A stretch of 64,000 bases of DNA from Rhabdothermincola salaria (lineage in GTDB: Bacteria; Actinomycetota; Acidimicrobiia; Acidimicrobiales; Acidimicrobilacustridaceae): the NCBI RefSeq assembly GCF_021246445.1, contig NZ_JAJQXW010000001.1, positions 744,001 to 808,000 on the forward strand, given 5' to 3'. Below, in pieces: positions 51,469 through 60,809 of the stretch (the first letter of the stretch is position 1; the number at the start of each line of letters is the position of its first letter). The notes beneath the pieces were generated by a model, which was given only the letters and a program-made list of their open reading frames with translations, did no database searches and was not told the DNA's origin. Both the position numbers and the translations under genes were made by a program.

Positions 51469-51633
51469 ATGAGCACACGACGACGGCTGACCGGGTTCGC
51501 AGCAGTCCTCGCCCTGGCCTTCGGGATCGGCTGGGGCGTCGGTCAGGCCGTGGGCCCGTTCGGCGACGAGCCGACGGGACCCGCGCCCGCGTCGACCCCG
51601 GCCGATCCCGACCACGCGGGAGGCCACCGGTGA
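51469..51633 (+). CDS. Small membrane-anchored protein ahead of copper ATPase
   Basis: A 54-residue protein: basic start M-S-T-R-R-R, one membrane helix ([16 protein letters not shown]), then a Pro-rich polar tail ending D-H-A-G-G-H-R. The two terminal histidines could bind metal. Its stop codon overlaps the ATPase start (GTGA). It directly follows a strong leaderless promoter, which supports real expression. No known family. Confidence 0.65.
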
Positions 51634-53900
51634 GCATCGACGCCGACAGCCGATCCGATGCCGGCGACGCCGCGCCCGTCACCGTCGACCTGGCCGTCAC
51701 GGGCATGACCTGCGCCTCGTGCGCCAACCGCATCGAACGCCGGCTCAACAAGCTCGACGGGGTGTCCGCGTCGGTGAACTACGCGACCGAGAACGCCCAC
51801 GTGGTCGCCCCCGCCGGCACCGACCTCGATCGCCTGGTCGCCGAGGTCGAGGCTGCCGGCTACGGGGTGCGTGAACCGGCGCCGCCCTCCAACGCGCCGG
51901 GGGAGGGGCCGGGCCCGGAGCCGGAGGGACCGGATCCCACCCGGGCCCTGCGCGACCGCCTGGCGATCTCCGCCGCCCTCACGCTCCCCGTGCTGTTGAT
52001 GTCAATGGTCCCGGCTCTGCAGTTCGACAACTGGCAGTGGCTCTCGCTCACCCTGGCCGCCCCGGTCGTGGTCTGGGGGGCCTGGCCCTTCCACCGGGCC
52101 GCATGGGTCAACCTGCGCCACGGCGCCGCCACCATGGACACGCTGATCTCGGTCGGGACCCTGGCGGCGCTGGGGTGGTCGCTCTACGCCCTCTTCTTCG
52201 GAGGCGCCGGCGAGCCATCCATGCGCATGCCTTTCGAGCTCACCGTCCAGCGCGGCGAGGGCGACCACCACATCTACCTCGAGGTCGCGGCGGGCGTCAC
52301 CGTGTTCATCCTCGCCGGTCGCTACTTCGAGGCCCGGGCCAAGCGTCGCTCCGGGGCCGCCCTGCGAGCCCTGCTGGAGCTCGGCGCCAAGGACGTGGCC
52401 GTGCTCCGCGACGGCGTCGAGGTCCGCATCCCCACCGACGATCTGCGTGTCGGCGACCACTTCGTGGTCCGGCCCGGCGAGAAGATCGCCACCGACGGCG
52501 TGGTCACCGAGGGCACGTCGGCCGTCGACGCCTCCCTGCTCACCGGCGAGAGCGTGCCCGTCGAGGTGGCCCCCGGCGACGCCGTGATGGGTGCCACCGT
52601 CAACGCCGGAGGCCGACTCGTCGTGCGGGCCACCCGGGTGGGCGCCGACACCGCCCTGGCCCAGATCGGCCGGCTGGTCACCGAGGCCCAGAGCGGCAAG
52701 GCGCCGGTGCAGCGCCTGGCCGACCGGGTGTCGGGGGTGTTCGTGCCGGTCGTCATCACCCTCGCGGCGGCCACGCTCGGCTTCTGGCTGGGGACCGGCG
52801 AAGGGGCCACGGCCGCCTTCACCGCCGCAGTGGCGGTGCTCATCATCGCCTGCCCCTGCGCCCTCGGTCTGGCCACCCCCACCGCGCTGCTGGTGGGCAC
52901 CGGGCGGGGCGCCCAGATGGGCATCGTCATCAAGGGCCCGGAGATCCTCGAATCGACCCGCCGGGTCGACACCATCGTGCTCGACAAGACCGGCACCGTC
53001 ACCACCGGCCACATGGCCCTGGTCGAGGTCGTGGTCGCCGACGGCGAGGACCGCGGCGAGGTGCTGCGCCTGGTGGCCAGCGTCGAGGACGCCAGCGAGC
53101 ACCCCATCGCCCGAGCGATCGCCGACGGGGCGCGCCGGGAGCAGATGGCGTTGACCGCGCCGAGCGACTTCGCCAACACCCAGGGCCTGGGCGTGCAGGG
53201 CGTGGTCGACGGCCACGCCGTCGTCGCCGGGCGCGAGCGCTTCATGGCCGACTGGGGACTGCACCTCCCCGCGGAGCTCACGGCCGCCAAGGAGGCCGCC
53301 GAAGCGGCCGGGCGCACCCCGGTGCTGGCCGGGTGGGACGGACGGGCGCGTGCCGTGCTGGTGGTGGCCGACACCATCAAGCCCACCTCCGCCGAGGCGA
53401 TCCGCCAGCTGCGGAGCCTGGGTCTCGCCCCGGTGCTGCTCACCGGCGACAACCAGCGAGCCGCCGGCGCCGTGGCCGCCCAGCTCGGCATCGACGAGGT
53501 GGTCGCCGAAGTCCTGCCCGAGGACAAGGTGATGGTCGTGCGACGCCTGCAGGACGAGGGGCGGGTGGTGGCCATGGCCGGCGACGGCGTCAACGACGCC
53601 GCCGCTCTGGCCCAGTCCGATCTCGGCCTGGCCATGGGCACCGGGACCGACGTGGCCATCGAGGCCTCCGACCTCACGCTCGTGCGCGGGGACCTCACGG
53701 CCGCAGCCGACGCCATCCGCCTCTCGCGTCGCACGCTCGGCACCATCAAGGCCAACCTCTTCTGGGCGTTCGCCTACAACGTGGCGGCCATCCCGCTCGC
53801 CGCCGCCGGCCTGCTCAACCCCCTCATCGCCGGCGCCGCCATGGCCTTCTCGAGCGTGTTCGTCGTCTCCAACAGCCTGCGCCTCCGGCGCTTCCGCTGA
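51630..53900 (+). CDS. copA: Copper-type P1B ATPase
   Basis: A 756-residue heavy-metal pump. One N-terminal HMA domain with C28 and C31 in G-M-T-C-A-S-C, then transmembrane segments, the actuator motif L-T-G-E-S-V-P, the ion path I-A-C-P-C-A-L-G-L, phosphorylation D-K-T-G-T near residue 451, the S-E-H-P nucleotide site and G-D-G-V-N-D. The C-P-C motif predicts Cu+ export. GTG start overlapping the small gene. Confidence 0.93.
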
Positions 53901-56894: not shown

Positions 56895-58376
56895 GTGGCG
56901 ACGAGGAACGGTGAGCCAGAGGCGCGGGCCATGCTCGAGGGGTTGGCCGGTCGGGGGCTGTTGATCGACGGCGACTGGGCCGGTCCCGGACGCGGGGGGA
57001 CCTACGCCCACCACGATCCCGCCACCGGTCGCCACCAGGCCGATGTGGGCCTGGCCAGCGCCCGGGAGGTGGACGATGCGGTCCGTGCCGCCCGCGCCGC
57101 GTTTCCCTCCTGGCGGCGCACGCCTCCGCACCGACGCGCCGCCGTACTGGCCCGTCTGGCCGACCTGCTCGACGAGCACGCCGCGTCGTCGGCGGCACTC
57201 AACGCCCTCGACAACGGCACCCCCGTGAGCGCCATGCCGTCGGGCCACTACGCCGCCAGCTGGACGCGCTACTACGCGGGGTGGGTCGACAAGCTCGACG
57301 GTGAGGTGCTCCCGGTCCACGACACCGGAGCGCTGGACTACACCCGCACCGAGCCCTACGGCGTCGTGGCCGCCATCGTGCCCTGGAACGGCCCGATGAT
57401 GGGGATGGGCCAGAAGGTGGCGCCCGCCCTGGCCGCCGGCAACACGGTGGTGGTCAAGCCACCCGAACTGGCCCCCTTCGGCGCGCTGCGCTTCGCCGAG
57501 CTGGCCCTGGAGGCCGGTCTGCCCGCCGGCGTGCTCAACGTCGTACCGGGCGGAGCGGCGACGGGCCAGGCGCTGGTCGGACACCCCGGCGTGGCCAAGA
57601 TCAGCTTCACCGGCGGCACCGCGACCGCTCGCGAGGTCATGGCGATCGCGGCTCGCCACTGCACCCCGTTGGCCCTCGAACTCGGGGGCAAGTCGGCCAA
57701 CATCGTCTTCGCGGATGCCGACCTCGACACGGCCGTGCCCGTCGCTGCCGTGCTCGGCGCCGGGTTGCTGAGTGGGCAGGGGTGTGCCCTGCCCACCCGG
57801 CTCTACGTCGACGAGCGCGTGGTCGACGAGGTGGTGGCGCGAGTGGTGGCTCAGGTCGAGTCGCTCCCGATCGGCGATCCACTCGACCCCTCCACCCTCG
57901 TCGGACCCCTGGTCAACCAGGCCGCGTGCACCCGGGTGCTCGGAGTGATCGAGCGAGCCCACGCCGATGGGGCCCGCCTCGCCACCGGCGGGCGACGACT
58001 CGCCGACACCCTCGAGGAGGGCTACTACGTGGCCCCGACCGTGTTCTGCGACGTCGACCAGCACAGCGACCTGGCAACCCAGGAGGTGTTCGGGCCGGTG
58101 CTCGCCGTCCTGCCCTTCGCCGACGAGGACGAGGTGGTCTCCCGGGCCAACGACAGCGCGTTCGGGCTGGCGGCCTACCTTCACACCCGGGACCTGTCGC
58201 GAGCCCTGCGGCTGGTGGAAGCGCTCGAGGTGGGCACCGTCACGGTGAACGGCTTCCCCCCGATGTCGCCGTCGGCCCCGTTCGGCGGCATGAAGGCCAG
58301 CGGCTTCGGTCGCGAAGGGGGGCGAGCTGGCATCGAGGAGTTCGTGCAGCGCAAGAACGTCACCCTGCGCTACTGA
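56895..58376 (+). CDS. Aldehyde dehydrogenase family protein
   Basis: A 493-residue NAD(P)-dependent enzyme oxidising aldehydes to acids. Catalytic Glu in L-E-L-G-G-K-S and catalytic Cys in S-G-Q-G-C-A-L-P-T; coenzyme segment P-W-N-G-P and V-V-V-K-P-P-E-L. It has a GTG start behind GGGAGGGG. The substrate is unknown. A TACAGT element at the 5' end of the intergenic leader may be its -10. Confidence 0.92.
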   Translation: MATRNGEPEARAMLEGLAGRGLLIDGDWAGPGRGGTYAHHDPATGRHQADVGLASAREVDDAVRAARAAFPSWRRTPPHRRAAVLARLADLLDEHAASSAALNALDNGTPVSAMPSGHYAASWTRYYAGWVDKLDGEVLPVHDTGALDYTRTEPYGVVAAIVPWNGPMMGMGQKVAPALAAGNTVVVKPPELAPFGALRFAELALEAGLPAGVLNVVPGGAATGQALVGHPGVAKISFTGGTATAREVMAIAARHCTPLALELGGKSANIVFADADLDTAVPVAAVLGAGLLSGQGCALPTRLYVDERVVDEVVARVVAQVESLPIGDPLDPSTLVGPLVNQAACTRVLGVIERAHADGARLATGGRRLADTLEEGYYVAPTVFCDVDQHSDLATQEVFGPVLAVLPFADEDEVVSRANDSAFGLAAYLHTRDLSRALRLVEALEVGTVTVNGFPPMSPSAPFGGMKASGFGREGGRAGIEEFVQRKNVTLRY

Positions 58377-58812: not shown

Positions 58813-59190
58813 TCAGCGCCGGTAGGTGACCACGTAGTCGACGATGGCGTCGATCTCGTCGTCGTCGAGAGTCGTCTCGTAGGCGGGCATGCCCGACTCG
58901 AAGCGACCCACGCGCACGGCGTCCTCCACCAGCACGGGATCGGGATCGAGCGCGACGAGATCCGCCCCGGTGCCTCCCGGTCGGTGGCAGGTGCCGCAGT
59001 GCTCGGCGAAGAGCGCGGCGCCGGTCACCGCGCTGTGAGCCTCGCCCATCGCCGGTCCCCGGCCGGGCTCGGCCGAGGACCCGCACCCGGTGGCGACGAG
59101 GGCGACCAGAGCCAGGGCGACCGCGACGGGCTCCCGTCGGCGTCGCAACCGCAGGCCCCGCCAGGCTCGGGTCGGATCAGGCGCCGGCAT
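58813..59190 (-). CDS. Lipoprotein c-type cytochrome
   Basis: A 125-residue monohaem cytochrome c. The N-terminal membrane segment ends in a lipobox V-A-T-G-C36; haem is attached at C65-G-T-C68-H69 and the axial methionine is probably M101 in G-M-P-A-Y-E. It overlaps the end of the redoxin selenoprotein gene by 14 bases, so the two are coupled. It may receive or donate electrons at the outer face of the membrane. No oxidase is next to it, but cydAB is within 30 kb. Confidence 0.88.
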   Translation of the reverse strand: MPAPDPTRAWRGLRLRRRREPVAVALALVALVATGCGSSAEPGRGPAMGEAHSAVTGAALFAEHCGTCHRPGGTGADLVALDPDPVLVEDAVRVGRFESGMPAYETTLDDDEIDAIVDYVVTYRR

Positions 59191-60277
59191 CGCCCTCGCC
59201 GGGCCGGTCGTCGACCGTCAGGCCCACGTAGTCCGGACGGCCGGCGTCGTCCCAGATCTGCCACAGCTCGAAGAAGTCCTGACCGAAGGGATCGAGGCCC
59301 CGAGCGGGCATCGACCCCCGGCTGATCGTCCAGTCCAGCGGCGCCAGCTCGACGGCGCGTGCGTAGTGCCCCTCGGCCTCCGCGTCGAAGCTGTGGCGGG
59401 CCAACCACGACGCGAGGCGCCGTTCGACCCGAGCGGCCTGCTCCTCAGGTGTGGGTGGGCGCGCCGTCCCCGAAGGTGCCTCGTGGCCGCCCATGGCCGG
59501 CAGCACTCCGTCGTGCACCCAGCGACGCAGCGCGTCGTGGTGCTCCTCGGCATCGATGCGGGTGAAGTCCTTGAACTCGTTGGTGCCCGGTGTGATCGTC
59601 GGCGGCTTCACCACCCGACCGTCCTCGTCGAGCCACACCGTGGCCGGCACGTTGGTGATGCCGTAGGTCTCGGCCACGGCGTGGTCGGCATCGAGGACGA
59701 CGGTCATGGTGGTCACCGGCGGCTCGGCGTCCTGCACCCATGGGCGGATCGCCTCAGGGGAGTCGTCGAGAGCAACGGCGACGATGTCGAGGCCGAAGGG
59801 GGAGAGCTCGTCGTGGAGGGTCTGCCAGACCGGCAGCTCGTAGCGGCACCCTCACCACGAGGACCAGGCCAACAGGACCCGCTTGCGGCGTTCCAGCGCC
59901 GGGACCTCCACGAGCGTCCCCGACAGGTCGGGGAGGCGGAGCTGGGGCGCTCGTCCACCGGCGAGGGCGGCCGCCCGCTCGTGGGCAGCATCACCGATGG
60001 AGACCACCGTGGGTCCACCGGACGGGCGAGCCACCGCGAACGGGCGCTGCAGGGCCGCGGACACCGCCGCGAGGTCGAGGCGACCATCGGCGTGCCGCGC
60101 CCCTGGATCGCGGACCGGGACACACAGGTCCCCCCGGCACAGGCCCTCGGGCTTGGGCTCCCACCCGGTGAGGCGATGGATCGCGTCGGCCTCGAGCCAC
60201 ACGCGGTCGCCGTCGTCGTGGGCGTCGACCTCGGTGTCGCCCTCCGCGGTCAGCACGGTCACGGCGCGTCGGGACAT
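59177..60277 (-). CDS. TlpA/ResA-like redoxin selenoprotein (in-frame UGA read as Sec142)
   Basis: A 366-residue protein if the TGA at 59852-59854 is read as selenocysteine. The Sec falls exactly in a thioredoxin-type active site: L-L-A-W-S-S-W-U142-G-C144-R-Y-E-L-P. An N-terminal domain of about 110 residues with a C-R-G-D-L-C pair precedes the redoxin core, and T-N-V-P-A-T-V-W-L supplies the cis-proline loop. I recall that NCBI names a family for a ResA-like W-A-x-x-U-G-C motif, which this matches. A GGUCU-loop hairpin follows the UGA. The downstream part (59177-59737) has no separate start site with a ribosome-binding sequence. No clear signal peptide was seen. The neighbouring cytochrome lipoprotein suggests envelope redox work. 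Confidence 0.9.
59822..59836 (-). promoter_or_regulatory. Bacterial SECIS minihelix with GGUCU loop
   Basis: On the minus strand CTGCC-GGTCT-GGCAG forms a 5-bp stem with a five-base GGUCU loop whose first base is 20 bases after the UGA. The GGUCU loop matches my recollection of the E. coli fdhF SECIS apical loop bound by SelB. A GGGT/ACCC lower stem is possible. Confidence 0.8.
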
Positions 60278-60389: not shown

Positions 60390-60809
60390 ATGACCGATGA
60401 CACGCTCCTGCGCCGCGTGGCCGACGACCTCGAGATCCGCTCCGTCGTGGCCCGCCTGGCCCAGTACGCCGACGGAGGTGATCTCGACGACTACGTCGAG
60501 CTGTTCACCGAGGACGCCTTCTGGAACATGCCGGGGGCCCCTCGCCGGGGTCGCGACGACATCCGGGCCGGGGGAGAGGCCCGCCGGGCCTCGGGCGAAG
60601 CCGGTCCGGGCAGCAACAGCCGCCACATGATCACCACCATCACCGTCGACGTCGATGGCTCCGATGCAGCCGTGGCCGACTCCTACTGGCTCTTCTACGT
60701 CGACACCGCCGAGAGCCCCACCCTCAAGGTGTGCGGGTCCTACCGCGACACCTTCCGGCGCACGCCCTCGGGCTGGAAGCTGGCCCGGCGCGACGTGAGC
60801 TTCGGATGA
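60390..60809 (+). CDS. SnoaL-like / nuclear transport factor 2-fold protein
   Basis: A 139-residue cone-shaped alpha+beta barrel protein of the SnoaL-like class: L-A-Q-Y-A-D-G-G-D-L-D-D-Y-V-E-L-F-T-E-D-A at the N-terminal helix and S-G-W-K-L-A-R-R-D-V at the end. Members include small isomerases, dehydratases and cyclases. Its stop overlaps the epimerase start (ATGA), so the pair probably acts together on an unknown metabolite. Confidence 0.88.
   Translation: MTDDTLLRRVADDLEIRSVVARLAQYADGGDLDDYVELFTEDAFWNMPGAPRRGRDDIRAGGEARRASGEAGPGSNSRHMITTITVDVDGSDAAVADSYWLFYVDTAESPTLKVCGSYRDTFRRTPSGWKLARRDVSFG

Follow-up and report, generated by a model that had tools for sequence, protein, structure and literature searches.

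Comparative evidence for a selenocysteine-containing UGC redoxin in Rhabdothermincola salaria

The redoxin locus and its in-frame TGA codon

We analysed a stretch of 64,000 nucleotides of the Rhabdothermincola salaria genome (hereafter the window; contig NZ_JAJQXW010000001.1, positions 744,001 to 808,000). Its minus strand carries a redoxin gene with an in-frame TGA at codon 142, an RNA hairpin shortly behind this codon and an overlapping downstream gene resembling a cytochrome c lipoprotein (Table 1). The reading frame was taken from an ATG at 60277 to a terminal TGA at 59177-59179; this start is an assumption, and the open frame extends further upstream. A SnoaL-like protein gene on the opposite strand (60390-60809) adjoins the start of the redoxin gene, and an aldehyde dehydrogenase gene (56895-58376) and a heavy-metal P-type ATPase with an HMA domain (51630-53900) were also found in the window.

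Table 1. Features of the redoxin locus, in window coordinates
Feature	Position	Strand	Basis
Selenoprotein gene (N-terminal module, redoxin domain, C-terminal helices; 366 residues + stop)	59177..60277	-	translation, profile matches, predicted structure
Selenocysteine codon 142 (almost certain), in-frame TGA	59852..59854	-	translation; relatives have TGA or a Cys codon
Bacterial SECIS upper hairpin: CTGCC 59832-59836, GGTCT 59827-59831, GGCAG 59822-59826	59822..59836	-	sequence and covariation
N-terminal module (about residues 1-105), predicted with confidence	59963..60277	-	no Pfam/PDB sequence match
Cys47 of N-terminal C-x4-C	60137..60139	-	invariant 60/60
Cys52 of N-terminal C-x4-C	60122..60124	-	invariant 60/60
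Redoxin domain of ResA/DsbE fold (about residues 104-257)	59507..59968	-	profile and structure comparison
Cys144, likely resolving Cys of U-G-C	59846..59848	-	invariant 60/60
C-terminal helices, residues about 277-344, weak partial TPR-like match	59246..59449	-	profile comparison, AlphaFold
Cytochrome c lipoprotein-like downstream gene, overlapping	58813..59190	-	sequence; unconserved beside family

The TGA lies in the context L-A-W-S-S-W-U-G-C-R-Y-E-L-P, giving an active site W-U142-G-C144, and 225 of the 366 residues are encoded from U142 onward. A preliminary description of the locus had placed the codon in a redoxin active site, with the frame open for 225 codons, and had numbered it Sec142; its coordinates and numbering were exact. 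When the genome was searched in six frames, the match to the gene crossed one TGA (178.6 bits). The corresponding site is occupied by TGA or a Cys codon in the relatives read out from both locus sets described below, and the alignment of relatives showed that conservation of the protein persists past the TGA. Genes of this type are often truncated at the TGA by annotation software.

Protein architecture and predicted fold

The structure predicted by AlphaFold2 with 60 sequences had a mean pLDDT of 92 and a pTM of 0.90. The model of the redoxin domain aligned best with ResA and DsbE structures (DsbE 3gl3: Z 14.8, rmsd 2.1, 140 residues aligned; ResA 1st9: Z 14.2, rmsd 2.0, 134 residues aligned), with peroxiredoxins further down the list. 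The protein thus shares its redoxin fold with ResA, DsbE and TlpA, but has U-G-C instead of their CxxC, possesses additional N- and C-terminal parts, and lacks a visible signal peptide or anchor. ResA and TlpA carry a signal peptide or membrane anchor and are not cytosolic. A hydrophobic N-terminal stretch was found in none of the 60 sequences by hydropathy (four have one elsewhere), a result that speaks mainly for the window protein, as the relatives were cut near its start and may have longer N-termini. The window protein is probably cytosolic. At the C-terminus, profile positions 259-307 weakly resembled a TPR protein.

The N-terminal module was also predicted confidently on its own (residues 1-108, pLDDT 94.4, pTM 0.84). 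In sequence searches it had no match in the PDB up to E 5 and none in Pfam up to E 0.5, where ten families each weakly hit one other member of the family. Structure searches with Foldseek (best E 0.21, 2Fe-2S ferredoxins) and VIA-align (best Z 5.9, an usher N-terminal domain, followed by ubiquitin-like and protein L-like domains) were too weak for a fold to be claimed. The preliminary description had called the N-terminal region unfamiliar. It does lack a recognised relative; it is nevertheless a conserved part of the family, with the profile match beginning at residue 29 and both Cys47 and Cys52 present in 60/60 aligned sequences. The same invariance holds for position 142 and Cys144, and these four positions are the sole Cys/Sec residues of the window protein.

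Peroxiredoxins have the motif P-x3-T-x2-C/U, to which L-A-W-S-S-W-U-G-C does not conform. This active site, together with the ranking of ResA and DsbE above the peroxiredoxins among the fold matches, makes it doubtful that the protein is a peroxiredoxin-type peroxidase, although Pfam AhpC-TSA (PF00578) matched at 51.9 bits (cut-off 26), Pfam Redoxin likewise exceeded its cut-off, and a published family name is 'Prx-like' (PMC2398784).

Relation to named families

We searched the joined translation, with U written as C, against family profiles and obtained a match to NCBIfam NF041054 (ResA-like WAxxUGC motif-containing protein, WAxxUGC_long) with 199.3 bits and an E-value of 1.1e-58. The best stretch covered profile positions 9-200 of 354, and the remainder matched weakly. 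The ResA profile scored 57.9 bits against a cut-off of 170. The W-A-x-x-U-G-C family named in the preliminary description is real, but the window protein stays below its curated cut-off of 300 bits. Both have the U-G-C redoxin active site and the N-terminal region in common; compared with the pattern in the family name, W-S-S-W-U-G-C keeps U-G-C, and its second residue is Ser where the pattern has Ala.

For the relationships within the family, a quick tree was built from 143 rows (97 Sec, 46 Cys), leaving out two fragments, repeats and 13 genes with Y-U-G-C or W-U-H-C. NF041054 was by a wide margin the best NCBIfam match, and all 60 sequences of set A2 matched it at E<=1e-10. Nonetheless, the sub-threshold score, the partial coverage and the tree, in which one branch (SH-aLRT 98; long-branch warning) set the 17 included long-form rows apart from the rest and which lacks 13 further long-form genes, make it improbable that the window protein is a full equivalog with the function of the curated long form. 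Judged by its sequence, the window protein is a sister subgroup of NF041054, below full membership. Sec and Cys forms required 11 changes on the tree, seven of them forced by starred branches, in a count that is free of direction. A first tree had put the window protein, on a long branch, inside a Cys group (SH-aLRT 85). The reversion from Cys to Sec that this would imply was dropped, because a tree uniting those 21 Cys rows without the window protein scored slightly better (p-AU 0.738, not rejected).

The family has already been named in the literature. The Global Ocean Sampling survey listed 46 Sec and 855 Cys sequences as 'Prx-like (UGC-containing)', commoner in nonmarine samples (PMC2398784), and later reviews used UGC-containing Prx-like protein (2022; PMC9312934) and UGC-containing TlpA disulfide reductase family protein (2026; PMC13188914). 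In the accessible parts of these sources, the family is defined by a PF00578-type (PMC9312934) or TlpA-type domain with a UGC motif. The window protein has a PF00578-type domain with this motif, and its assignment to these published entries is based on motif and domain. We found no dedicated study of the UGC family in the open-licence literature, as far as its text was accessible, nor did the term 'WAxxUGC' occur in the literature searched. Within this named family of bacterial selenoproteins, the window gene is a convincing member, though not an unusual one.

A hairpin that accompanies the TGA codon

The hairpin starts 15 bases after the TGA and its loop after 20 bases, exactly as the preliminary description had it. 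In the GGUCU sequence given there as apical loop, bases 1 and 4 are better taken to form a G-C pair, which closes a two-base GU tip and is followed by a bulged U. The same GGUC-U layout is reported for a Moorella SelB-SECIS structure. The window gene has a stem, a GU tip and a bulged U; the accessible part of one source (PMC8704476) describes bacterial SECIS elements as having a bulged U and, in the loop, a G-U that is left unpaired. No SECIS model was matched in an Rfam search, and three microRNA matches (E 1.4 to 4.1) were regarded as chance. When folded by energy alone, the hairpin appeared in a 54-base stretch and was absent in stretches of 40, 44 and 48 bases.

The hairpin was compared between Sec and Cys forms in two overlapping sets of loci. 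The first comprised 90 loci (L027-L116), of which 77 had genes with W-U/C-G-C, namely 60 Sec genes, including that of the window, and 17 Cys genes. The other 13, which lack W-U-G-C, were recovered by a read-out independent of the hairpin and were all Sec genes, with W-U-H-C in L045 and Y-U-G-C in 12 long-form relatives (L031, L037, L042, L043, L047, L048, L050-L052, L054-L056). The second set consisted of 80 named loci kept from 346 confirmed ones; 79 of them yielded 83 genes (49 Sec, 34 Cys) and L171 none. Counting distinct 45-base segments, the pooled sets held 92 Sec and 47 Cys genes, and 105 Sec genes (window gene included) after the 13 loci had been added.

All five pairs of the stem were kept in 60/60 Sec genes but in 9/17 Cys genes of the first set, in 49/49 against 10/34 of the second, and in 105/105 against 16/47 of the pool. 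One Sec gene, L064, had a compensated double change in the stem (CTTCC/GGAAG). Loop bases 1 and 4 formed a Watson-Crick pair in 104 of the 105 pooled Sec genes (C-G 60, G-C 34, A-U 10) and in 20 of the 47 Cys genes; shuffling base 4 among the Sec loops (10,000 rounds) gave a mean of 47 pairs and a maximum of 63. The complete element was present in 104/105 Sec genes, among them 12 of the 13 added ones, compared to 4/47 Cys genes; p-values for these contrasts are nominal, since the sequences are related and not independent. The sole Sec gene with a broken 1:4 pair and an incomplete element was L037.

The contrast persisted when only genes of the first pool encoding L-P-x-W-Q were considered (stem in 90/90 Sec and 14/21 Cys genes). 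The tip was GU, the textbook form, in 56 Sec genes, including that of the window, GG in 48 and GA in one. In Sec genes the third bases of the Pro and the following Gly/Val codons covary; GU tips accompany Val, and GG tips accompany Gly. Between P and W, Sec genes encode Gly or Val (with one Asp), and Cys forms additionally Ala, Leu or Ser. The correspondence of Val with GU and Gly with GG suggests that the hairpin restricts the protein sequence.

Selenocysteine machinery and distribution of the two forms

The window genome (3.9 Mb, 97.8% complete) was searched with profiles for the selenocysteine machinery. Matches were found for SelA (5.3e-99), SelD (4.5e-109) and SelB (3.5e-77), the last on the same strand as SelA and beginning 90 bases past the end of the SelA match. 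A tRNA-Sec with a TCA anticodon was detected both by the Rfam model (70.6 bits) and by ARAGORN. None of the 17 matches to the formate dehydrogenase profile TIGR01591 in this genome crossed a TGA. The preliminary description had named a genome lacking Sec machinery, or relatives with neither Sec nor Cys at the TGA, as observations that would speak against its reading; the genome has the machinery, and the relatives have TGA or Cys there.

Among 395 genomes of the class, 116 had a match at E<=1e-30, 39 of them above the cut-off. The match contained a TGA in 97 genomes and none in 17, all of which had Cys; two fragments (G031, G236) missed the site and came from genomes with SelA. SelA (E<=1e-30) was found in 93 of the 97 TGA-form genomes but in only one of the 17 Cys-form genomes, G162 (Fisher p 6e-15). 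The four TGA-form genomes without a SelA match were G292 (96% complete) and G363, G188 and G174 (70-79%). Conversely, 162 of 258 genomes with SelA had no such match at E<=1e-30, indicating that the redoxin gene is dispensable for selenocysteine use. The window's own family is represented by eight listed genomes, which had neither the redoxin gene nor SelA (E<=1e-30), suggesting that the window genome acquired the trait or was alone in keeping it. Named relatives with TGA included records of Chloroflexota, Myxococcota/Deltaproteobacteria and Rokubacteria, and relatives with Cys included Nocardioides. A locus titled as a Bifidobacterium breve MAG (L121) has a gene that groups with one of the window's class (G135), and its title is probably wrong. 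In four Chloroflexota/Dehalococcoidia contigs (L159, L174, L191, L196) a tandem pair of Sec-form copies was seen, each with its own stem; the tree suggests that these copies trace to one old duplication.

Chance is ruled out for the TGA and the hairpin by the strength of the NF041054 match, its continuation through the TGA, and the near-complete restriction of the full element to Sec genes. A premature stop or sequencing error, that is, a mutated TGC/TGT in a broken or misread Cys-form gene, can hardly be upheld: Cys forms with TGC/TGT do occur among the relatives, but TGA stands at the site in 60/77 genes of the first set (window gene included), in the 13 extra loci and in 49/83 genes of the second set, hairpin and SelA both accompany it, and the protein behind it is conserved. 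As the host has the machinery, the hairpin is kept with Sec forms and SelA tracks the TGA form, the TGA almost certainly encodes selenocysteine and the gene, known here from its sequence, is a genuine selenoprotein gene. Together, these data are good comparative evidence for Sec translation of the UGC redoxin family in Acidimicrobiia and some other phyla. They also describe a natural experiment, in which one protein exists in a Sec and a Cys form inside a single class and the hairpin is tied to the Sec form.

A proposed mechanism and the genomic context

We propose that SelB binds the hairpin and brings Sec-tRNA(Sec) to UGA142, so that selenocysteine would be inserted. The product would be a soluble cytosolic redoxin, in which W-U142-G-C144 may form a selenenylsulfide replacing the CxxC disulfide of ResA and TlpA. 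Sec142 would most likely reduce a disulfide or peroxide substrate, with Cys144 as the resolving residue. The invariant C47-x4-C52 could serve as an electron relay or docking site and possibly re-reduce the selenenylsulfide; on its conservation, the relay role is a tentative assignment. It is equally speculative that the protein is a self-contained cytosolic selenium relay, with an undescribed N-terminal C-x4-C domain feeding a U-G-C selenenylsulfide in the same chain and an mRNA hairpin that also shapes the protein. We know of no characterised selenoprotein with this layout of an N-terminal C-x4-C domain and U-G-C. The accessible parts of the sources on the family give no function; a mechanism can be put to the test through the two invariant cysteines near the N-terminus.

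Among the loci examined, no conserved neighbour hinted at a substrate. Clustering of the ORFs around 60 loci (window included), using a crude gene finder, revealed no widely recurrent neighbour in a fixed place and thus no conserved operon. The clearest cluster, acyl-CoA ligase-like by eye, abuts the gene in four loci, and another candidate cluster looked like an antisense artefact. A frame with CxxCH followed the gene in 2 of 132 stretches, the window itself and L112, which looks spurious. In the window, the cytochrome c lipoprotein-like gene begins within the end of the selenoprotein gene, and this overlap of 14 bases could couple translation of the two.
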